From Stieleria bergensis (GTDB taxonomy: Bacteria > Planctomycetota > Planctomycetia > Pirellulales > Pirellulaceae), in NCBI GenBank assembly GCA_007745635.1, contig CP036272.1, positions 1,841,900 to 1,905,899 on the forward strand: 64,000 nt of DNA. Reading direction: 5' to 3'. The notes beneath the pieces are model-generated. The model saw nothing but the letters and a program-made list of their open reading frames with translations. It was not told where the DNA came from and did not search any database. The position numbers and the translations under genes are program-made. Shown here one piece after another: positions 16,884 through 26,827 of the stretch. Position 1 is the stretch's first letter. The number at the start of each line of letters is the position of its first letter.

Positions 16884-17079
16884 AATAGTTAGAGACGAAA
16901 TTGTTCTGGTTTGATGGTGCGTCTGACGAATCTTACGCCTTTAGGTCTAGGGATCAGCAGATCGCGATGCCAGCAGCCAGTGAATCAAGCGATAGCCGAT
17001 CAGTAACATGTCGGTGACATTCAACCGCTGTGACTGATCAAGAATCGCCAGTTCTTGTTGCAGCGGAGGTTCTAAACCG

Positions 17080-17721
17080 ATGTCACCCACGCCAACTCCC
17101 AACCCTGAAGACTCTGATCCAGAGCGGAATCAAACGCCCCAGGATGGTTTTCAGGAATCTGCCAGCAGTGATTCGGCCAGCAGTGATTCGGCCTCGATGA
17201 GTGCTGATGAATCGGCGATTGACCGTTTCTTTCGTGGCATCAACGAGTTTATCTTTCACACTAAACTCGGCGTCGTCGATGTCCAGTTAGTGGATTACGT
17301 CAGCGATCTGATGATGCGATTCGTGCGAGTGGATTCCTTGTATTCGCTTCGACGCAACGATGGAATGCGAACGAAGCACCTGCTGGAAATGATCGGTGAA
17401 GCGGAGCGCCGAATCGGACTTGCCAAGCGGGAAGTCTATCAACACGTCGGCGACTTTGCCTTGTTTTGGTCTGGAATGTATCCTGAGAGTTTAGGGCGTG
17501 ATGAAGTGGCCCCTAAACTTGATGGCCGATTCATCGATTACTGTCAGCAAGGCAAACGCGCTTATGCAATCGCCTCGGGAATCGAAGGCGGAGAGGGACG
17601 CCCATCGTGTGATCTAATCCATCGGATGAGCGAACAGTTTGAGATGTGCGCTTATGGGCTGCGCGAAGTGCGACGATACTGGGAAGAAGGCGATCAAGGC
17701 ACCAACACCTTGGTTTTCTAA
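17080..17721 (+). CDS. Conserved hypothetical protein with disordered N-terminus
   Basis: A 213-aa protein I do not recognise. A disordered acidic N-terminus (residues 1-42) contains a perfect 15-bp in-frame duplication coding for ASSDS repeats at 17161-17190. From residue 44 a compact, helix-rich core follows: DRFFRGINEFIFHTKLGVVD, LVDYVSDLMMRFVRVDSLY, HLLEMIGEAERRIGLAKREV, FALFWSGMYPE, IHRMSEQFEMCAYGLREVRRYWEEG. There is no signal peptide or membrane segment, so it is probably cytoplasmic. A good Shine-Dalgarno, GGAGG at 17065-17069, supports the ATG at 17080. It is convergent with imuB. I infer no function. Confidence 0.75.
   Translation: MSPTPTPNPEDSDPERNQTPQDGFQESASSDSASSDSASMSADESAIDRFFRGINEFIFHTKLGVVDVQLVDYVSDLMMRFVRVDSLYSLRRNDGMRTKHLLEMIGEAERRIGLAKREVYQHVGDFALFWSGMYPESLGRDEVAPKLDGRFIDYCQQGKRAYAIASGIEGGEGRPSCDLIHRMSEQFEMCAYGLREVRRYWEEGDQGTNTLVF
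17161..17190 (+). repeat. 15-bp perfect tandem duplication inside a coding region
   Basis: The 15-mer GCCAGCAGTGATTCG occurs twice in succession (17161-17175, 17176-17190) and keeps the frame, adding Ala-Ser-Ser-Asp-Ser to a disordered tail. Confidence 0.9.
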
Positions 17722-17729
17722 ACCCGTCG

Positions 17730-17753
17730 AAGCGGCTGCGACTGTGGCCGCTT
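17730..17753. terminator. Hairpin between convergent genes
   Basis: A 7-bp perfect stem, AAGCGGC/GCCGCTT, with a 10-base loop lies 9 bp after the stop of the hypothetical gene and before the convergent imuB end. There is no T-run on either strand, so intrinsic termination is doubtful. Confidence 0.35.
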
Positions 17754-17808
17754 GCCGGTGTTGGGGTTTGAGGTTTGTTTGGTGAAGCCAGGTTCGCAGA
17801 CGAGGCCA

Positions 17809-19548
17809 CTATCCAAAGCGACCGTGCAGGTACCACTGGCCCGTTTTCAGGTCCGTGAAGATCCACCAGAGGTTGCCCGAATCGGTTTGCACGCGATAGT
17901 AATCGCGACGCACCGAGGGGCCGTCCCACCAAGCGGTCTCGATGCGTTCGGGGCCCCAAAAGACTTTCACAAGGTGATCCTGCCCTTGGTAACGGATGGT
18001 GGGAGACGACTGTTGGTCTTGCTCGCGGCGCAGGCATTCGATCGGCACCGGGCGACGCAGAAGTTGCACCGGGCGACGGCGAGCATCATGTCGTGTTGGA
18101 AACGATGATCGCTCCGTTGCCCCGCCCTGCTCTTTTCGGACACTGATTTTCTTGGCATGACCGGGCAGCTTGTTCACTAATTTGCGTGATCGATAGTCTG
18201 TTAGCGGATAAGTCCGATAAGCCTTTTCCGGTAACGGGTTGGAATTCACTCGGACAACTTGCACGGCTTGATAACCCAGGCGACCGCTAAGCGTGTTGAC
18301 CAATTGAGCTAATGACTGGTCCCCCGCGCTTGCAGCGTCCATGGAGAAACCGTCGTCGTCAAACAGCATTGGCTGCGAAGCACGCAGTGGCTCGCTCTGC
18401 AAGATGCTCAATGCGATCTTGCAAACGCATGCACGCAGGTTGATTGATTCCAAGTTTGCCTGAATCAGCTCCATCAGGTGTTCGCGTTGCCGAGTCGGTG
18501 AGTACAGGCCAATGACCGCGGTCAGCGGCGCTGCATCGATCAGTTGCAGTCGGTACACCAAACGCAACACGCCTTGGCCGGCTGTTTTCATCGCCGCCAA
18601 AACTTGGTCCAGTAACTGCTGCATGCGATTGCAGATCAATTCCAAATCGTCGGTGGCGTACTCCAATTCGGTTTTAGCTGAGAACTGAATCGGTTGTTGG
18701 AAAGCGGTGAGCGGTGATTCGACTTCGCCTTGAATCTCGGCCATGCGATCAACCAAGGCTTCCCCGAGTCGTTGTGCGAGTCCACCGCGCGGCAAATTCC
18801 ACAACTGTCCCAGTGTCTCGATTCCCAGCCGTGACAAGGTCGTGTGTGTTTCTGTGGCAATGCGTAAGCTGGCAACGGGGAGCCGACTGAGTTCCGCAGT
18901 TTGATCCGTTGAAATCAAACAATCGCTGCTGTGGTAATGAGTCAACGCCCAGGCGGCTGCTGAGTTCGAGGCGATGGCGAGACGAGCCTGATAGCCTTCG
19001 CGATGCAGCATGCGTTTGACGTGTTCAAGCAAACCCGGTTCATCATCAAACAGATGAGTCACTCCATCGAGCTGGCAAAATAGTGATTCCGGTTCACACA
19101 GGGATTCGCCTGCCCATGGTCTGCGATCGCGCGCTTCAATGCCAACCAACGGGCTCACCTGAGTGACCAGTAACGTGGCCAGACGTTCGAGCTCTGCCAA
19201 ATCAGCAATGGGGTCATGCTCAGCAAGAATCGGTGCTGCGTTTGGTCTCTCCGAACTGCGTTGACGTGCCCGATGGTTCAGCAGGTCAACTGCTTCCGCG
19301 ATCGGCATCCCCGGACGAACGGCTGATTGAACCGCTCGCTGGCAGCAAGCGATCACCAAACGACCCCTGCGAGCGTCTTGATGCCAAATCACCCATGGCG
19401 ATGGCGGCAGTGACTGCGCTGCGTCTGCTTGTTCGCCGGTGGAGAGATTGCTTTCAGCTGGCCGAGCGTTGACCAGGTTTTGGCGAGACTCGTTTTGAAA
19501 CCTTTGGATTGGCCAATTGGGCAGCCAGATGCACAGTAGACGTTTCAT
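17809..19548 (-). CDS. imuB: ImuB-like inactive Y-family DNA polymerase
   Basis: A 579-aa Y-family-polymerase-related protein of the ImuA-ImuB-DnaE2 mutasome. It starts at MKRLLCIWLPNWPIQRF, where active Y-polymerases have the D-x-D metal motif; ImuB proteins lack those acids, as here. The finger/little-finger regions are recognisable (EAVDLLNHRARQR; LSRLGIETLGQLWNLPRGGL, the helix-hairpin-helix; RLGEALVDRM). QPMLFDDDG near residue 390 occupies the place of the canonical ImuB beta-clamp-binding motif, and LSGRLGYQAVQVV follows. I chose the ATG at 19546-19548; an upstream in-frame start would add 31 residues with no similarity. Even so the gene overlaps imuA by 95 bp. No DnaE2 gene is in the window. 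Confidence 0.85.
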   Translation of the reverse strand: MKRLLCIWLPNWPIQRFQNESRQNLVNARPAESNLSTGEQADAAQSLPPSPWVIWHQDARRGRLVIACCQRAVQSAVRPGMPIAEAVDLLNHRARQRSSERPNAAPILAEHDPIADLAELERLATLLVTQVSPLVGIEARDRRPWAGESLCEPESLFCQLDGVTHLFDDEPGLLEHVKRMLHREGYQARLAIASNSAAAWALTHYHSSDCLISTDQTAELSRLPVASLRIATETHTTLSRLGIETLGQLWNLPRGGLAQRLGEALVDRMAEIQGEVESPLTAFQQPIQFSAKTELEYATDDLELICNRMQQLLDQVLAAMKTAGQGVLRLVYRLQLIDAAPLTAVIGLYSPTRQREHLMELIQANLESINLRACVCKIALSILQSEPLRASQPMLFDDDGFSMDAASAGDQSLAQLVNTLSGRLGYQAVQVVRVNSNPLPEKAYRTYPLTDYRSRKLVNKLPGHAKKISVRKEQGGATERSSFPTRHDARRRPVQLLRRPVPIECLRREQDQQSSPTIRYQGQDHLVKVFWGPERIETAWWDGPSVRRDYYRVQTDSGNLWWIFTDLKTGQWYLHGRFG

Positions 19549-20569
19549 GGCGCCGAGTGTTGAGAGTGCGAACGAAACGCAAGTTGGCAGTGGCGTCGAT
19601 TTGAAAGAGCCCCGTTTGTCCGGCTGCACCACCACGAGCACGATCCATGGTCAGACGAATGGTTTCAAAATCAAACACACGTGTTGGAGCGGGGGGCTGA
19701 ACAGGTGGGCGTGAATTCGTGCGATCAGCAGAGTGTGATTGTGTTTGCGGAGATCGTGGTTCCGAAGCAACGTAAAACTGAGCGTCTGCAAAGCTAGGCT
19801 GACGGCGAGCCTTAAAGTCACGCACAAACAGTCCAGGAGTATGGCCGGTTTCAGCGGCCAGTTGTAAGCGGCGAGCTTCTTGGCTGTCCAGTCGCATCGG
19901 CAGGTTGGCCCAAACCGCTGCCAAGGCGCCGCTTCGCAACCCCTGAGCGATGCTCCATAACGCATCACGGCTATTGCGAGGACGCACCAAAATCATGCGC
20001 TCAGCAGGAATCCCCAACGCAAGTGCTGCAGGCGGGTAAAAGACGCCTTGGCAATCAACAATCATGATCGGGCGCCGCGAGACTTTGTTCAGACGCTTGG
20101 AGGCGGCGATCAATGAAAGTGTGTCAGTGGCCACGCTTTGTTGAGCGGCAATCCATTCAGTGATTGCCGCTGGATGCAGGCCACCATTGGGAAGCCACTG
20201 ATCGATCGTTTCTGAGCCGCTGGAAAACACTTCGCTATGGCTTGAACCCGATTCCAACATTCTCGGTTGACTGATGCAGCCCACTTGGCGACGTAAGGAA
20301 TCGAGGACCGATTCTGGTGCGGGCTGTGTGGCAGGCTTGGTTGGGGCTGCCTGCAAGGTTAACGGCGCCGGTGTGGCAAACGCTTCCTGGTGAGTCCGTG
20401 CTGAGCGAAAGGTTTGGGTGATCGTCTGAGTCGACTTGGAACGACTTGGTTTGCCTGTGCGTTTTGCTGACCCACCAGCATTCTGTGCCAACGCAGCATT
20501 CTGTGTTTGCCCAGCAGCATTCATGGAGGGTGAGTCCATGAAATCAAAAAGGGGTTGCTGTTGCGTCAT
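19454..20569 (-). CDS. imuA: ImuA-like RecA-fold mutasome accessory protein
   Basis: A 371-aa ImuA/SulA-related RecA-like protein. The core is visible as FSSGSETIDQWLPNGGLHPAAITEW, IMIVDCQGVFYPPAALALGI (Walker-B-like), RPRNSRDALWSIAQGLRSGALAAVWA and QEARRLQLAAETGHTPGLFVRD. The Walker A is degenerate (AAQQSVATDT), so ATP binding is questionable. In characterised systems ImuA bridges RecA, ImuB and DnaE2 in error-prone repair. I chose the start at 20569, giving MTQQQPLFDFMD; the frame extends further upstream to 20632. The initial Q-x-LFDF is similar to a beta-clamp motif. It is co-transcribed with imuB with a 95-bp overlap. Confidence 0.78.
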   Translation of the reverse strand: MTQQQPLFDFMDSPSMNAAGQTQNAALAQNAGGSAKRTGKPSRSKSTQTITQTFRSARTHQEAFATPAPLTLQAAPTKPATQPAPESVLDSLRRQVGCISQPRMLESGSSHSEVFSSGSETIDQWLPNGGLHPAAITEWIAAQQSVATDTLSLIAASKRLNKVSRRPIMIVDCQGVFYPPAALALGIPAERMILVRPRNSRDALWSIAQGLRSGALAAVWANLPMRLDSQEARRLQLAAETGHTPGLFVRDFKARRQPSFADAQFYVASEPRSPQTQSHSADRTNSRPPVQPPAPTRVFDFETIRLTMDRARGGAAGQTGLFQIDATANLRFVRTLNTRRHETSTVHLAAQLANPKVSKRVSPKPGQRSAS

Positions 20570-20587
20570 GGTTGAAATGGAAAACAA

Positions 20588-20614
20588 GTAGGCAGGTGCG
20601 TTTGCACGGACCCT
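20588..20614. repeat. Imperfect palindrome, copy 1 of a GTGCG..TTGCACG element
   Basis: GTAGGCAGGTGCG followed by TTTGCACGGACCCT lies just upstream of imuA. It shares GTAGG, GTGCG, TTGCACG and ACCCT with the element at 32292-32317, so both may belong to one family of small intergenic palindromes. Confidence 0.45.
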
Positions 20615-20769
20615 AAAAGAAAGCCAAGCCAAGTGATGATCAGGCAGTCGGTCTCATGGACGCGCCCGGTTGTTATTTTGGGTGTAGGGGGGCCAGCACG
20701 GGTGTTTCCGGCGTGGTCGTTCAGGGTGCTATCCTGGTTCTGCCGACGAAGTCGCTGCCGGTGAGCGTG

Positions 20770-20814
20770 TTCAACCGCGCGCGAAATTCACGTCTTCAAC
20801 CGCGCGTGAAATTC
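20770..20814. repeat. Direct repeat pair upstream of imuA
   Basis: Two 20-base copies at 20770-20789 and 20795-20814 differ at a single position; each reads TTCAACCGCGCG(C/T)GAAATTC. Their starts are 25 bp apart. The location, about 200 bp before imuA, allows either a regulator-binding array or a neutral duplication. Confidence 0.8.
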
Positions 20815-21027
20815 TCGGGGCGATTGCCTGGGAGCACCTTCCATACATCTTAATGCTAGCAAAAAAAGAAGTGGGTTTCTTCCATCCAATGGGTAAAGGT
20901 TCAGTCGGCTACCCTTGGTTGGCCCATGACAGGTGGACGTTTTTTTCCGAAAGTACTGGTTGTAAGGCCTTCTGGGGATCGTGAGACGGCTGCTTGCGGT
21001 GCCCCAATCAGCAGCTGAAGATGCCGC

Positions 21028-21405
21028 TTAGCAGCTGGAGGCCAATTGAGCACTGCTTTGGGCGGCATCGCGTTCTGCGGCTCGTCGCTGACGCTCTTTG
21101 GTGAACACGCCTTCAGCCAGAGCGGCGGCGCGTTCGGCAGCAGCGATGGCTTTGCGAGCGGCTTGTTCCTCGCGCCGTTTGGCCGCCACTTGGTAACGCA
21201 AGATGACTAGGCGAGCCAAATCGCCCATGCGATAGACGCCGTCTTCGTCGCGCTGGGGCTGCAATGCATCGGCTTCGGTAGGTTCCGCTGGAAGCTCGTT
21301 GATGCCGGGACGGTATTGGGTGCTGGGCGCGGTTTCCGGTGCCATCACAACTGTGGCGGAGCTGTTTGAAGTCGTGAACGCGTCGAAGAGAGAAAGCTGA
21401 GTCAT
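21028..21405 (-). CDS. Small protein with N-terminal beta-clamp-binding motif
   Basis: A 125-aa protein of no family I recognise. It begins MTQLSLFDAF; QLSLFD is a near-perfect match to the consensus bacterial beta-sliding-clamp motif QL(S/D)LF. A disordered Thr/Pro/Ala segment (residues 11-50) leads to DGVYRMGDLARLVILRYQVAAKRREEQAARK, then an Ala/Arg-rich helix or coiled coil (AIAAAERAAALAEG, ERQRRAAERDAAQ). It lies upstream of imuA on the same strand, 458 bp away. The N-terminus of ImuA (MTQQQPLFDF) has the same layout. I infer a clamp-associated accessory to the mutasome. Why this start: the motif follows the ATG at once and there is no further in-frame similarity upstream. Confidence 0.65.
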   Translation of the reverse strand: MTQLSLFDAFTTSNSSATVVMAPETAPSTQYRPGINELPAEPTEADALQPQRDEDGVYRMGDLARLVILRYQVAAKRREEQAARKAIAAAERAAALAEGVFTKERQRRAAERDAAQSSAQLASSC

Positions 21406-21911
21406 GGTTAATCGCCCGTCGAATGGAGGGTTCCAGTCCAGTCTGGTTGGCCCGTGTGTTGTGCGGCCGGTTAGAAAGTGCTGGTGGGGGATGATTTCAA
21501 AGCAATCTGTGGCTCAAAGCGGCGTGTTGCCTTGTGTTGGCAGAATCATCGCGACGCGGTTGACACCACTGGTCACGTGGTGAAAGAAACCAAGAAAACC
21601 TGGGAATTCAGGCTTGGAACAGCATGATTCAGCGTTGGCGACCCTTAACTGACCGATCCCGGACACTTTGCTAGCCGATTCAGAGCGCTTTGCTGGCCGA
21701 TCCAGAGTGCTTTGCTGGCCGATCCAGAGTGCTAGCGAATCCTGGCCTTCAAGCAGCCCATCAGGCCAGGTGTGCCGCAGCGAAGAAAGTCCCCGGGAAA
21801 GATTGTTTGCCAGGGCCATGCTGGGGACGTCATGGCTGTGCGAACGAGCCAAGATGGAGTAAAATTGAATCTTGACCGCACACCATATTCTCTCTTAGAG
21901 GGCATTTCAGA
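21406..21911. other. Gap of 506 bp holding a tandem repeat
   Basis: Between divergent genes. Other than the three 22-bp repeats at 21666-21731 I find no gene, RNA or terminator. Open frames here are repeat-derived (for example the one spanning the repeat on the plus strand) and are not credible. Confidence 0.5.
21666..21731. repeat. Three 22-bp tandem repeats
   Basis: Units of CTTTGCTGGCCGATCCAGAGTG at 21688-21709 and 21710-21731 are identical; the first unit, 21666-21687, differs by three bases. A partial fourth copy follows. Length is not a multiple of 3, and no gene spans them. Confidence 0.9.
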
Positions 21912-22328
21912 ATGGCAACTGCCACCGCAGAACCAATTGATTTCAAGATTTCGCCGGATGATCAGGACGAGCACAGCTTTGTCAGTGTTTGGAACATTGC
22001 ATCGGCCACCTGCGAGGGCGATCAAGAGAAAACGCGAGCGCTGGCTTCCAAGCTGCTCAATTTCCTTTGCAAACGCGACTGCGATTTTGTCGTCTGCAGC
22101 TCTTCTGGTGTGGAATACTTGGACGAGAAGTTCGAACTGGACAAAAAGATCCTGTACGATTGGAAGCCGGAAAGCGAGTACGTCGACATCATCACTCAGC
22201 ACGCTGAAGTGCCGGGCCGAGCGTTCATGTCCTTTCTGACCACTCATAAATTCAATCCATCAACCAAATACAACCCGCGTCGAGCGGACCGCGAACTGTG
22301 GTTCCGTGAACGCTGGTGTGTGGGTTGA
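21912..22328 (+). CDS. Conserved-looking hypothetical protein
   Basis: A 138-aa soluble protein I do not recognise. It is acidic at the N-terminus (SPDDQDEHSFVSVWNIA) and has mixed charged and aromatic content: LLNFLCKRDCDFVVCSSSG, FELDKKILYDWKPESEYVD, ARMS-free, then RADRELWFRERWCVG at the end. Three of its four cysteines lie in residues 53-62, but there is no C-x2-C pair typical of zinc sites. There is no signal peptide or membrane segment. A GAGGG Shine-Dalgarno at 21898-21902 supports the ATG. It is followed after 34 bp by a hairpin that may end its transcript, so it appears monocistronic. Confidence 0.7.
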   Translation: MATATAEPIDFKISPDDQDEHSFVSVWNIASATCEGDQEKTRALASKLLNFLCKRDCDFVVCSSSGVEYLDEKFELDKKILYDWKPESEYVDIITQHAEVPGRAFMSFLTTHKFNPSTKYNPRRADRELWFRERWCVG

Positions 22329-22361
22329 TAGGCTGGTTCAGTTCTGACACCACAGGGCAGT

Positions 22362-22381
22362 TTCCCGCTTGACGGCGGGAA
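22362..22381 (+). terminator. Candidate terminator after hypothetical gene
   Basis: A perfect 7-bp stem TTCCCGC/GCGGGAA with a 6-base loop is followed by CGTTTCTTGTG, a weak T-rich tract. It lies 34 bp after the stop at 22328. Confidence 0.45.
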
Positions 22382-22460
22382 CGTTTCTTGTGATTGCTCT
22401 GTCACGCCAGATTAGCACTCACCGTTCGTTCCTCACCCCAAACACGTTCAGGGTGCAGAC

Positions 22461-23708
22461 ATGAAGTCACACTTGATGTGTCTTGCTTTGATCGCTGTTG
22501 CTTGGGGGTTGGCTCCTGTTGCTTCGGTGGGAGCTTTATGGGCTGAGCCTCCGGTGTCTAAGGAACCCTCTGCAAGCGCGAGCGATGGCAGCTCATCGGC
22601 TGACACGGCCGCTGAATCCGATTCCATTCTGGATCGTCTGTACCCCAACGGCATGGGCTGGAAACGAACGCCCCAGCCACTGAGTCATTGGGTCACTCAG
22701 TTAGGCAGTGACCGTTACGCCGCCCGCAAACTGGCGCGCACCAAGTTGCTGGCTGCCGGTGCCGACGCGGTGCCGCTGTTGATGAAGCACTTTGCTGGCA
22801 GCAACTTAGAAGCTCGCAAGAGCACGATCGAGTTGCTGGGGATGCTGGTCCAGCTTGATACGCCCTGGTCGGAAAGTTCTGCGATGGGGGCATTAAGCGA
22901 TTTGGCGGACAATCAACATGGCATTGTCGCACAACTCGCCGTCTCGACCAGACGAGCGGCCGTCGATGCCCGATCCGGCGCCGCGTTGAAGTCACTGGTG
23001 CTTGATGGGGCTGTCGTGGGTTACCGGGAATCAGCGATTGGATCCCGCACAAAGACTCGCCTAGTGCTTCAAGTCGGAGCTCCATTCCACGGCGGAGAGG
23101 AAGGGCTGCGCTGGTTGGCATGGGTCCGAGGCATCGAAGTCCTGGATGTTCAGGACCTGAACTTAAATGTTGCCATGATGAAGCACATTGTGGGAATGCC
23201 TGATTGCCAAACTTTGAAGTTGATTGACTGTGAAATCAGTGATGATGCCTTCAAACAGTTGGACTTCATGCGTCCGATGAGCAGTCTGGATCTGCGCTAC
23301 AAGAAGCTGAATGAAGAGCAATTTGCGTTGCTGGGGCGGTTGCCGCTCCGCGAGTCGCTCGTGCTAATGGGGACGGGTGGTGGCGATGCCGAGCGTGAAA
23401 CGCTGGAACGTGCGTTGCCCGGCGTGAAGGTCGCGGTTCGCAATGGCGGATTTCTCGGGGTCAGCTGTAGTTCAAGTTCGTTGGACGCGTGCACGGTCAA
23501 CGAAGTGGTGCTCGATAGCGGTGCTGACCTAGCCGGTGTGCAAAAGTATGACGTGATCGTTCGCATCAACGACCAAAAGATCTCTCGCTTTGACGATCTG
23601 CTGGAAGAAATTGGAAAACATCATGTTGGCGATGAAGTCAAAATCAAGCTTCTGCGATCAGGTGTTCCAGTCAACTGTACCGCGACGCTGCAAAAATTGA
23701 AGAACTAA
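22461..23708 (+). CDS. Exported HEAT-like/LRR-like/PDZ composite protein
   Basis: A 415-aa protein with a signal peptide (CLALIAVAWGLAPVASVGALWA), so periplasmic or surface-located. Residues about 85-190 have HEAT/Armadillo-like helices (DRYAARKLARTKLLAAGADAVPLLM; ARKSTIELLGMLVQL). Residues about 220-300 have leucine-rich-repeat-like steps (WVRGIEVLDVQDLNL, CQTLKLIDCEISDDAFKQL, MSSLDLRYKKLNEEQF). The C-terminal 80 residues form a PDZ domain: GFLGVSCSSSS, SGADLAGVQKYDVIVRINDQKISRFDDLL, KLLRSGVPVNCTATL. There is no protease domain, so a scaffold or sensor role in protein interaction is the best inference. I know no named family for this order of modules. Confidence 0.75.
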   Translation: MKSHLMCLALIAVAWGLAPVASVGALWAEPPVSKEPSASASDGSSSADTAAESDSILDRLYPNGMGWKRTPQPLSHWVTQLGSDRYAARKLARTKLLAAGADAVPLLMKHFAGSNLEARKSTIELLGMLVQLDTPWSESSAMGALSDLADNQHGIVAQLAVSTRRAAVDARSGAALKSLVLDGAVVGYRESAIGSRTKTRLVLQVGAPFHGGEEGLRWLAWVRGIEVLDVQDLNLNVAMMKHIVGMPDCQTLKLIDCEISDDAFKQLDFMRPMSSLDLRYKKLNEEQFALLGRLPLRESLVLMGTGGGDAERETLERALPGVKVAVRNGGFLGVSCSSSSLDACTVNEVVLDSGADLAGVQKYDVIVRINDQKISRFDDLLEEIGKHHVGDEVKIKLLRSGVPVNCTATLQKLKN

Positions 23709-23790
23709 GACCGCACGGCCGCGAGTTCCGATGGCTTTGAGGCATGAATTGGGGACTGACCCCGTCTTCTCAGTCGTCGCGTCGCTGGAT

Positions 23791-23850
23791 GCAATCAGCT
23801 TGAAGCAATCAGCTTGAAGCAATCAGCTTGAAGCAATCAGCTTGAAGCAA
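23791..23850. repeat. 14-bp tandem repeats, four full copies
   Basis: GCAATCAGCTTGAA is repeated perfectly four times (23791-23846) and a partial fifth copy starts at 23847. It lies between a PDZ gene and mutY, ending about 20 bp before the mutY Shine-Dalgarno, so copy number could change the mutY 5' region. Confidence 0.95.
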
Positions 23851-23870
23851 TCTGATCGGAGCGGAATGTG

Positions 23871-23876
23871 AGGAGG
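23871..23876 (+). promoter_or_regulatory. Strong Shine-Dalgarno of mutY
   Basis: AGGAGG at 23871-23876 lies seven bases before the ATG at 23884 and fixes that start; it is the strongest ribosome site noted in the window. Confidence 0.85.
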
Positions 23877-23883
23877 CAAAGGG

Positions 23884-25197
23884 ATGCCCAAGAAGAAACC
23901 TGCAGCAAGTCACGCGACACCAGAAACATTCGATGCGGAGTCGCTGGATTTCGATGACAATTGGCAACGGTCATCCTGGCGCAGCCGTTTGCGCCAGCGC
24001 CTGCTCGCTTGGTTTGACGTGCACGCTCGCAGCATGCCATGGCGAAGTGATCCACAGCCCTACAAGGTTTGGGTCAGTGAGATCATGCTGCAACAAACTC
24101 AAGTTGCCACCGTCATGCCGTACTTCCATCGTTGGATGGAAGCTTTTCCCGATATTCAGTCGTTGGCGGCAGCTGACATTGATGAATTGATGCGTCACTG
24201 GGAAGGCTTGGGGTACTACCGGCGCGTCAAATCGATGCATGCGGCAGCCCAGCAAATCGTTGATCAGCACGGTGGTCAGTTTCCAGCGGATTATGACTCG
24301 GTCTTGGCGTTACCGGGTGTGGGGCGTTACACAGCGGGGGCTGTGCTGTCGATCTCTGGAGACGCTCGGTTGCCCGTTCTAGAGGGCAACACTCAGCGCG
24401 TTTACAGTCGTTGGATTGGCTTGCGTCAGACACCCACTGACAAGCAAGCCAACAAGTTGCTTTGGCATTTCGCCGAAACCATGCTGCCTCAAGCGGAGAG
24501 CGGCCGTTTCAACCAAGCTGCGATGGAACTGGGTGCTTTGGTTTGCACTCCACGTCAGCCGAAATGCGAGACCTGTCCCGTGCGGTCGGCATGCAGCGCT
24601 GCCAAGCACGCGTTGCAGGATGTGATTCCCGGAAAGATTAAACGCTTGGAGTATCAGGATCGCACGGAGTTCGCGCTGATCGTTTCCCGTCCGCCCAAGT
24701 CCGTGACGACCGCTGCGAACGGTCAGCAAAAAATCAAGAAACGAGCTGTGTCCCAGACAGGTGCGAACACGCAAACGGGCGAGCAAGAGTTCTTGGTCCG
24801 CCCTTTACCTGACGGCGGTCGGTGGGCAGGGCTATGGGATTTCCCTCGACCGACCGATGCTGAAATGGAATCGGTTGATCATGCCGCGCATTGGCTGTCC
24901 AAGCAGCTTGAGACTCCTCTGATGGCCGGTGTTCGCCTAGCCACCATTCGGCACGCTGTGACAAAGTATCGCATTTCATTGCATGTGCATCAGGTTCTGT
25001 GTCGTGCTGAAGAACAGTCGTCGCGGCAAAGGCTTGCGGACATCAAGCCGCCAGGAATTCTGGCCCTGGATCCTCCTGAGCCGTGGAACTGGAAATCGCT
25101 CAAGGAATTGGAAGAGCTTCCGATGAGCGTGTCAGGACGAAAAATTGTCCGTCACTTGCAAACGCAACAGCAGTCGTTTTTGCCGCTTGCGGAATGA
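23884..25197 (+). CDS. mutY: A/G-specific adenine DNA glycosylase with altered catalytic residue
   Basis: Removes adenine mispaired with 8-oxoguanine. The 437-aa protein has the full MutY layout: PYKVWVSEIMLQQTQVATV contains the catalytic Glu (E. coli Glu37), HWEGLGYYRRVKSMH the adenine-pocket loop, LPGVGRYTAGAVLSI the helix-hairpin-helix, and CETCPVRSAC with the upstream Cys forms the [4Fe-4S] cluster. The C-terminal NUDIX-like 8-oxoG-recognition domain starts near residue 300 (RPLPDGGRWAGLWDFPRP). The striking feature is the position equal to E. coli Asp138: the sequence is PVLEGNTQRV where E. coli has PILDGNVKRV, so the catalytic Asp is Glu (codon GAG). Length is a little above normal owing to a Lys-rich N-terminal tail and a loop near residue 280. 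Confidence 0.92.
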   Translation: MPKKKPAASHATPETFDAESLDFDDNWQRSSWRSRLRQRLLAWFDVHARSMPWRSDPQPYKVWVSEIMLQQTQVATVMPYFHRWMEAFPDIQSLAAADIDELMRHWEGLGYYRRVKSMHAAAQQIVDQHGGQFPADYDSVLALPGVGRYTAGAVLSISGDARLPVLEGNTQRVYSRWIGLRQTPTDKQANKLLWHFAETMLPQAESGRFNQAAMELGALVCTPRQPKCETCPVRSACSAAKHALQDVIPGKIKRLEYQDRTEFALIVSRPPKSVTTAANGQQKIKKRAVSQTGANTQTGEQEFLVRPLPDGGRWAGLWDFPRPTDAEMESVDHAAHWLSKQLETPLMAGVRLATIRHAVTKYRISLHVHQVLCRAEEQSSRQRLADIKPPGILALDPPEPWNWKSLKELEELPMSVSGRKIVRHLQTQQQSFLPLAE

Positions 25198-25570
25198 CGA
25201 ATCGCCGCGATTCCCGGTGGAATGTTCGCTGCGTTCAGCGAAGCGGCCTCCAGGCGAGCCGTTTGATCGCTGAGTGGACGGTAAGCTTCGGTCAGCGATC
25301 GATGCTGGTCATCAGTTTCCAACGGCAGCAGGTTTTTAGGCTGTTAGAACAACGGTGATGATCGCGGTTCAACTCGTACAGACGCAGAACAAGGCAGTCG
25401 CCCGTTTTCTCGGCGGCGGTTTGCACCAAAAGCCACGCCAACGTGGATTGAAGCTTGGAGATTGCTTGTCGCAGTCCCCTCAGATCCGATGCACGAGACT
25501 TACCGGCAAACTATACTGCTGCGCAGACTGTCTAACCCATCAACTTGATTCCTTTCAGATTTTGAACGCT
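25198..25570. other. Gap of 373 bp before the peroxidase gene
   Basis: No gene is supported. An inverted repeat with 9-bp perfect arms, GATCGCTGA at 25265-25273 and TCAGCGATC at 25292-25300, could fold with an 18-base loop. The open frame running through from 25355 into the peroxidase lacks a sensible start. Confidence 0.5.
25512..25517 (+). promoter_or_regulatory. Possible -10 element (TATACT) for peroxidase gene
   Basis: ACTATACTG lies 54 bp before the ATG at 25571 and repeats the sequence found before the 15303 sulfatase. No good -35 partner is visible. Confidence 0.25.
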
Positions 25571-26827
25571 ATGAAGTCAACGTTACGCACCGCACTCTGT
25601 GCCGCTCTTTGTTGCACTGCCTCCACGATGGTCTTCGGTGTTGAGCCAGTGATCGAAGTGGAAGCCAAAGACGGCTTGATCGTCTTGGGCCAAGAAGACT
25701 CTCTGCTGACCGGTGTTCCCGGCGAGGGGGAGTTGACGTTGGAAGAGGCTGCAAAGTGGTTCAGCGACAGCGGAAACCACGAAACCTTGAAGGTGAAATT
25801 GCCCAAGGGGCTTGAAGCGGGGGCCAGTGCCATGCACATTCCCGCCGACAATCCACTGACGCGAGCGAAGGTCGAACTGGGACGCCAGCTTTACTTTGAT
25901 CCCCGCTTGTCTTCTGACGGCACGATTTCATGTGCTTCGTGCCATGATCCCGCGCAAGGGTACGCTGCCAAGACTCAATTTGGCGTAGGAGTGGATGGTC
26001 AGGAAGGCGGCAGAAACTCACCGGTTTCCTATAACCGGATCCTCAGCAAGGCTCAGTTTTGGGACGGCCGCGCCGCCTCGTTGGAAGAGCAAGCAGTGGG
26101 ACCGATCGCCAACCCAATTGAAATGGGAAACACCCATGAAAAGTGCGTTGCCGATCTCAAAAAGAATCCCGTCTACAGCATGGAGTTCAGCAAAGTCTTC
26201 CCCGACGGAGTCACGATTGACAACGTTGGCAAAGCCATCGCCGCCTTTGAACGCATGTTGGTGACAGGTCCCATGCCTTATGACCATCTAGAGGCCCTGG
26301 AACGTTTCGAGAAGATCTTCGCTGATGACTTAGACTTCTTGGACGAGGATCCAGAATTAAAACAACAGTACGATGCCTTGATCGCGGCGACAAAAGCCAA
26401 TCCCATGAGCGAATCAGCGAAACGCGGCAAGGTGTTGTTCTTTGGAAAAGCGAACTGCTCTGCCTGCCACTCGGGAGCCAATTTCGCTGACGAGCAGTAT
26501 CACAATCTCGGTGTGGGGATGGAAGTTGACGAACCCGATTTTGGACGTCATGAAGTATCCAGTGACACCAAAGACAAAGGAGCGTTTAAGACGCCAACGC
26601 TTCGGAACGTTGTCCTGTCTCCCCCGTACATGCACGACGGATCTCAAGGGACTTTAGAAGAGGTGGTCAAGTGGTACAACAAGGGCGGTCACAAGAACCC
26701 GCATTTAAGTGACAAAATGAAGGTACTTAACCTGACCGAGCAAGAAGAAGCCGACGTGGTGGCGTTCATGAAAGAAGGGCTATTGGGGACATTCCCAAAA
26801 GTCGAAACGGATCGTCTACCCGAGTAA
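25571..26827 (+). CDS. Di-haem cytochrome c peroxidase, MauG/CcpA family
   Basis: A periplasmic di-haem protein of 418 aa, expected to reduce hydrogen peroxide using electrons from c-type cytochromes. A signal peptide (MKSTLRTALCAALCCTASTMVFG) ends near residue 23. Two haem c motifs are present: CASCHDP (about residue 120) and CSACHSG (about 300). Family segments include LGRQLYFDPRLSSDGTISC, FWDGRAASLEEQAVGPI, FGRHEVSSDTKDKGAFKTPTLRNV and YMHDGSQGTLEEVVKWYN. The coding frame opens at 25355, but only the ATG at 25571 gives the signal peptide at the N-terminus. Function could instead be MauG-like oxidation of a protein partner. A strong terminator follows. Confidence 0.9.
   Translation: MKSTLRTALCAALCCTASTMVFGVEPVIEVEAKDGLIVLGQEDSLLTGVPGEGELTLEEAAKWFSDSGNHETLKVKLPKGLEAGASAMHIPADNPLTRAKVELGRQLYFDPRLSSDGTISCASCHDPAQGYAAKTQFGVGVDGQEGGRNSPVSYNRILSKAQFWDGRAASLEEQAVGPIANPIEMGNTHEKCVADLKKNPVYSMEFSKVFPDGVTIDNVGKAIAAFERMLVTGPMPYDHLEALERFEKIFADDLDFLDEDPELKQQYDALIAATKANPMSESAKRGKVLFFGKANCSACHSGANFADEQYHNLGVGMEVDEPDFGRHEVSSDTKDKGAFKTPTLRNVVLSPPYMHDGSQGTLEEVVKWYNKGGHKNPHLSDKMKVLNLTEQEEADVVAFMKEGLLGTFPKVETDRLPE

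Follow-up and report, generated by a model that had tools for sequence, protein, structure and literature searches.

The closest described counterpart of the locus analysed here is the ImuA-ImuB-DnaE2 mutasome of Mycobacterium, Caulobacter and Pseudomonas. The two are alike in that imuA and imuB are adjacent and DnaE2 is encoded elsewhere, and in that ImuB carries a Q-x-x-L-F clamp motif. They differ in their parts, with an extra small clamp-motif protein and a clamp-like ImuA tail here, and in their regulation, which here involves a DriD-type box on the gene for the small protein and on recA, but not clearly on lexA or dnaE2. We use X as shorthand for this protein of 125 aa, encoded at 21028-21405 on the minus strand of the window, that is, of the whole 64,000-nucleotide stretch of Stieleria bergensis DNA that was analysed. 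The accessible parts of two surveys of mutasome diversity name no X-like subunit (PMC6511836, PMC12926913). UmuD', YqjX/YolD and standalone ImuB-C are likewise small damage-regulon proteins found beside a Y-family homologue but, unlike them, X has no Pfam or NCBIfam model and is predicted to consist of a tail and a single helix. Hda and RarA have a clamp motif at the extreme N-terminus, as X does, but X lacks their AAA+ domain (no Pfam match). The first-pass annotation knew of no description of such an accessory, which agrees with the literature searched (titles and abstract beginnings, with subscription literature outside the scope), where no description of X was found.

There are also precedents for the regulation. 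DriD is an ssDNA-sensing activator whose site is given as ATACGAC-N7-GTCGTAT in the accessible part of PMC12340889. The half-site layout of the X box, GAC-N7-GTC, equals that of DriD as given there (PMC12340889), but the flanking bases depart from the DriD consensus, and the regulator that we propose is a candidate. The mycobacterial P1 promoter, given as tTGTCRgtg-8 nt-TannnT in the part of PMC5656591 available, has a spacing similar to the TGTC-N10/11-hexamer distance of the X box. The WYL-controlled, LexA-independent regulons of DriD and PafBC resemble the present case in having recA as a target, and the window's genome encodes one HTH-WYL-WCX protein. Our preferred proposal, with a probability of about 0.47, is that X is induced by damage and tethers the ImuA-ImuB-DnaE2 mutasome to the clamp. 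The features concerned are as follows, with imuA and imuB downstream of X on the same strand.

17809..19548, minus strand: imuB, inactive Y-family polymerase-like subunit (IMS match)
18361..18375, minus strand: QPMLF clamp motif of ImuB, residues 392-396
19454..20569, minus strand: imuA, RecA-like mutasome subunit (NF033429 match)
20540..20560, minus strand: clamp-like motif QQPLFDF of the ImuA N-terminal tail, as seen in the X-bearing clade
21028..21405, minus strand: gene X, 125 aa, with N-terminal clamp motif, variable linker and predicted C-terminal helix
21154..21228, minus strand: conserved core of the predicted C-terminal helix, X residues 60-84 (MGDLARLVILRYQVAAKRREEQAAR)
21385..21399, minus strand: QLSLF, X residues 3-7; Q-[L/M]-x-L-F in 46/46 distinct orthologues
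21561..21576, minus strand: promoter box GTGACCAGTGGTGTCA (TGAC-N7-GTCA), with GATGAT/ATGATT behind it at a spacing of 10-11 nt

Gene X and its N-terminal motif

Translation of the frame at 21028-21405 (minus strand) gives a protein that begins MTQLSLFDAF, with QLSLF at residues 3-7, as the first-pass annotation had claimed for the N-terminus of a 125-aa protein next to imuA. The consensus of the beta-clamp-binding pentapeptide is QL[S/D]LF. In a single genome, the motif is within chance frequency: the DNA pattern for an MTQLSLF-type start, ATGNNNCARNTNNNNYTNTTY, has 5 sites in the 7.1-Mb genome versus 4 for a reversed-pattern control. The motif can be considered real because it is kept in orthologues, not because of its frequency in one genome. 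Indeed, all 46 distinct X proteins collected have Q-[L/M]-x-L-F at the N-terminus, and this conservation rules out a chance motif. Q3, L6 and F7 are invariant, residue 4 (the second position of the motif) is Leu in 23 proteins and Met in the other 23, and residue 5 is M, L, S, T or N. The next residue, at position 8, is Asp in 39/46 and otherwise S, E, P or T. The codons of the motif vary silently (CAA or CAG, five Leu codons at position 6, TTT or TTC). Together with the variable next residue, these silent changes indicate that selection acts on the pentapeptide itself.

The 22 named loci were gathered using motif-containing patterns and are thus biased for the motif. The unbiased test is a motif-blind search, for which 119 genomes of the family were scanned with a profile restricted to the C-terminal 32 residues of X. 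Matches at E 0.01 or better were found in 28/119 genomes, and 26 of the 28 are X (E 6e-10 or better; 11 genera); weak matches in G262 and G282, and second matches in G077 and G235, were left out of the X count. All 26 X proteins have the motif, beginning M-T-Q-[L/M]-x-L-F with one exception, MFKQLSLF. At the level of sequence, the motif is strict. The first-pass annotation had named a lack of orthologues with the motif, or conservation of the rest of the protein without it, as outcomes that would count against its proposal; instead, orthologues exist, the motif is conserved with the rest of X, and the Q-L-x-L-F that it sought is kept, as Q-[L/M]-x-L-F, throughout the collected set. For two of the 46 X rows (L006, L285), the E-value of the second domain is meaningless.

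Whole X proteins span 75-158 aa, with a linker that differs in length and sequence. A second conserved block, GDLAxLVLxRYxLVAxRR, follows the linker, in a predicted helix with abundant Arg, Lys and Ala. AlphaFold predictions, run on single chains with and without relatives, have low confidence across residues 1-50 (block means 39-61) and give a confident single long helix from residue 55 or 60 to residue 123 or 124. The clamp motif is predicted to be exposed in a flexible, disordered segment. Judging by the identity of the motif, X probably binds the clamp, and docking is a well-supported prediction. X has no match in Pfam or NCBIfam and none among solved structures (PDB), and neither the database models nor the solved structures indicate a partner for the helix; 2/23 relatives have one chance-level Pfam match each. 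Rfam gives no match over 17000-26000.

Distribution of X and its position relative to imuA

X is restricted to part of one family. The motif-blind search did not find it in 93/119 family genomes, which implies that ImuA-ImuB works without X elsewhere. Within the same genus, X is present in 12/13 other genomes, and the sole miss, G009, is 85% complete. At the order level, 20/196 genomes match at E 0.1 or better, including 10 with true X by inspection, all of them Pirellulaceae; at the phylum level, 11/392 match at E 0.01 or better, where strong hits are confined to G000 and G077 and the remaining 9 stand as uninspected matches. Named relatives with X include Rhodopirellula, Stieleria, Rubripirellula (a member of the Pirellulaceae) and Roseiconus. 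Two genomes from the genus of G077, G271 and G292, have no X match, and their imuA genes are at contig ends. In a midpoint-rooted tree of 79 ImuB sequences, which leaves out L083 (an 81-aa ImuB piece) and L074 (no ImuB match), all 16 sequences from X-bearing (X+) genomes fall in one clade with G287 inside it (support 0.999). Thus, X has a single origin, within one clade of Pirellulaceae. The genomes in which X is linked to imuA form one subclade (support 1.0) and those with unlinked X branch outside it, so X seems to have relocated to the side of imuA during evolution.

The adjacency to imuA/imuB that was initially claimed applies to most X-bearing genomes. In 17/26 family genomes, from seven genera, X lies upstream of imuA on the same strand; in 7/26 it is elsewhere, at distances from 7 kb to hundreds of kb or on a separate contig. 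The linkage of the other two, G077 and G273, is left undecided, since in both the contig stops where imuA starts; inspection by eye shows a transposase-like frame after X in G273. Of the same-genus genomes with X, three of which are also among the 17, 12/12 encode ImuA directly downstream on the same strand. A mutasome component would be expected always to be encoded with imuAB, and X is not (17/26). Moreover, X and imuA are separated by a lapA-like gene on the opposite strand in 8/9 named relatives inspected (L292, L294, L298, L300, L302, L303, L304, L312; L291 has a partial frame only). Pfam, run on L294 alone among the lapA-like genes, identifies LapA_dom. No lapA-like frame was seen by eye in the X-imuA gap of the window. 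Given this separator, a common operon for X and imuA is doubtful. Hence, the link between X and imuA is one of neighbourhood and regulation rather than a proven operon, and an imuA operon was set aside as proof of X function, given the separator in 8/9 and the location elsewhere in 7/26. On the other side of X, a divergent 138-aa frame (21912-22328, plus strand) adjoins the gene, as inspection by eye also shows for further genomes in this genus; it has no Pfam or NCBIfam family above the cut-off.

Each of the 15 X+ loci read contains imuA and imuB frames, and DnaE2 is encoded in 12/12 X-bearing genomes tested, split across two contigs in G137. The ImuA of the window matches NF033429 with E 1.6e-25 and 90 bits, under the model's 150-bit cut-off, and its ImuB matches IMS with E 4.2e-5, just over the cut-off. 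The ImuA model is matched in 116/119 family genomes, with weak matches that include RecA. The ImuA start MTQQQPLFDF and the ImuB QPMLF reported by the first-pass annotation are both present on translation. A start-proximal ImuA motif, Q-x-x-[F/L]-x-[F/W] or QLxLW, occurs in 14/15 X+ loci, the fifteenth having QLAFGD, versus 1/65 X- loci, where the single hit is sited inside the RecA-like part. Examples from X+ genomes are QQTFDF, QQPLFDF, QLQLWD, QLELWD and QLAFWD. In this tally, G287, whose imuA is at a contig end, is counted provisionally as X-; the imuA frame of L101 is also at a contig end. As read from these sequences, a clamp-like ImuA tail was gained in the X-bearing clade. Because the X+ sequences form one clade, the co-occurrence of X and the tail may come from shared ancestry alone. 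The ImuB clamp motif of M. tuberculosis is QLPLWG according to the part of PMC10421592 available, and a clamp ligand of the QLxLW form has thus been tested elsewhere.

ImuB keeps Q-x-x-[L/I]-[F/L] in 14/16 X+ versus 49/64 X- sequences, and the two X+ exceptions, G253 and G019, both have X unlinked. Linked genomes keep the motif in 12/12, the window's own included. X is thus not needed for clamp attachment as such in linked genomes, since their ImuB has its own motif; compensation by X for a lost ImuB motif is ruled out for these genomes.

The promoter box and its probable regulon

The box GTGACCNNACGTGTCAY emerged from comparing the upstream regions of X genes. Exact copies number 27 in ten X-bearing genomes, versus 0 for a reversed control. 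The genes behind the box (loci L184-L210, with recA at L237-L248) include X, recA, cas3, csrA and genes for small WYL-like proteins; Cas3 and CsrA were identified by Pfam, recA by position and the WYL-like proteins by eye. The box in the window is the most divergent of 45 boxes before X, with 2 mismatches to the clade consensus. The core GAC-N7-GTC is present in 44/44 X promoters having at least 250 bp upstream and in 12/12 recA upstream regions, 11/12 under a stricter test allowing 2 mismatches at most. A hexamer with A2 and T6 stands 10 or 11 nt behind the box in all 44 X promoters; at other spacings, it occurs 0 times at 4-9 and 12, 5 times at 13 and 18 times at 14, and the rest up to 19 give 0 or 1. 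The X promoter boxes with a spaced -10-like hexamer, shared with recA, are new here.

A looser pattern, with at most 1 mismatch, has 55 sites in the window's genome versus 48 in the control, so most loose-pattern sites are chance. Among 30 loose sites with loci, those before X and before genes for an SbcD-like phosphoesterase (Metallophos by Pfam), an AddB-like protein (by eye only, with no Pfam match) and a short WYL-domain protein are likely true. The box is found before dnaE2 in 1/12 upstream regions at up to 2 mismatches. If this were a LexA regulon, the box would be expected before lexA too; with up to 3 mismatches allowed, 1/12 lexA upstream regions has it, at a distance of 341 bases, in a count that leaves out the second LexA genes of G010, G024 and G214. 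The imuA gene is behind a box of its own in 11/65 X- loci and in 4/4 unlinked-X loci read. In linked loci, the only box found is the one before X (11/11).

What might read the box? The window's genome encodes two WYL-domain proteins, one of which has the HTH-WYL-WCX layout (a 343-aa open frame at C1:3241075, with WCX and WYL above the cut-off and HTH_11 below it). No box was found before the gene for this protein itself. We infer that the HTH-WYL-WCX protein reads the box, and the TGAC-N7-GTCA box probably defines a DriD-like, LexA-independent damage regulon of Pirellulaceae. Damage induction of X would follow from the sharing of the box with recA and from the DriD/PafBC precedent.

Several short WYL-only proteins with no recognised helix-turn-helix are encoded behind the box (G000:C1:1907901-1908089, which sits just outside the window, L187, L196, L201 and L203). 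At G000:C1:3956448-3956487, GTCACCGGACGTGTCA is present in three overlapping copies, offset by 12 bases. A different palindrome, TTGCTAGCAA, occurs at up to 1 mismatch in 15/80 imuA, 2/12 lexA, 2/12 recA and 1/12 dnaE2 upstream stretches. Palindromes of this type stand before imuA at L096, L119, L147 and L149, before lexA at L232 and L234 and before recA at L237 and L238, and the window carries one, TGCTAGCA, before imuA at 20854-20861. The TTGCTAGCAA palindrome is possibly a LexA operator of the clade; its occurrence before imuA and one LexA group is only suggestive. In the part of PMC3108266 available, the LexA of planctomycetes is described as not using the E. coli site.

Possible roles of X

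If X is a tether for the mutasome, its N-terminal Q-[L/M]-x-L-F would dock in the hydrophobic pocket of DnaN, the sliding clamp, and after damage X, the ImuB motif and the ImuA tail would jointly provide multivalent attachment of the mutasome to this dimeric clamp. Three things argue for this reading: the helix is conserved, ImuA has its tail, and X apparently moved beside imuA. Restriction to one clade, the unlinked cases and dnaE2 without the box argue against a dedicated mutasome subunit. We infer both a partner for the helix and an effect of X on mutagenesis. The earlier suggestion of a clamp-linked accessory to error-prone repair therefore stands in part: the conserved motif, the position mostly beside imuA and the recA-type box favour it, while the clade restriction, with X missing from 93 family genomes, does not. 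A fuller version is possible but doubtful, namely a four-part mutasome with three clamp hooks (X, the ImuA tail and ImuB) and X as a flexible tether, in which X, recA and parts of CRISPR defence are under an ssDNA-sensing, DriD-type WYL activator instead of LexA.

Other roles would account for some of the same observations. X could be a damage-induced competitor that fills the clamp pockets, displacing the replicative polymerase and other clients, slowing replication and favouring polymerase exchange, while not being a mutasome subunit. This would suit a small protein with its motif at the very tip and one further conserved block, a box common to recA but not clearly to dnaE2, and a gene that can be encoded away from imuA. 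A pure competitor, however, needs neither a conserved C-terminal helix (GDLA..V..R......RR) nor a position beside imuA across seven genera, and we regard this role as unlikely. X might instead tether a different damage-response partner, such as RecA, a recombination nuclease or, through its basic helix, DNA, with closeness to imuA reflecting regulon clustering only. The sharing of the box with recA, the SbcD-like phosphoesterase gene (Metallophos), cas3 and csrA, the abundance of Arg, Lys and Ala in the helix, the 7/26 genomes with X unlinked and the 138-aa frame that also neighbours X in the window's genus (by eye) all favour such a partner; against it stand the presence of imuA beside X in seven genera and the ImuA tail of the X-bearing clade, and we regard it as rather unlikely. 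It is improbable that Q-[L/M]-x-L-F serves a non-clamp purpose, for example binding another partner or protein turnover, in a protein with an unrelated damage function. Such N-termini are at chance level in a single genome and half of the orthologues (23/46) have Met at the second motif position, but the boundaries of the pentapeptide fit the clamp consensus QL[S/D]LF, and ImuB and the ImuA tail of the same genomes carry similar motifs.

What would be the implications of a clamp tether for the mutasome? The error-prone mutasome would not be fixed at three parts, since a lineage would have added a dedicated clamp tether and multiplied the clamp contacts. These genomes would also offer a natural experiment on the way in which clamp occupancy governs the access of translesion polymerases. 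The TGAC-N7-GTCA site, in turn, would outline a little-known planctomycete DNA-damage response and supply a directly testable list of targets.

A separate observation concerns four loci with X unlinked (L088, L092, L100 and L143). Their ImuB motifs are QQSLL, QPDLI, QRSLL and QPTLG, and their ImuA tails are of the QLxLW or QLAF type, as if ImuA had taken over the clamp contact from ImuB in X-unlinked genomes.
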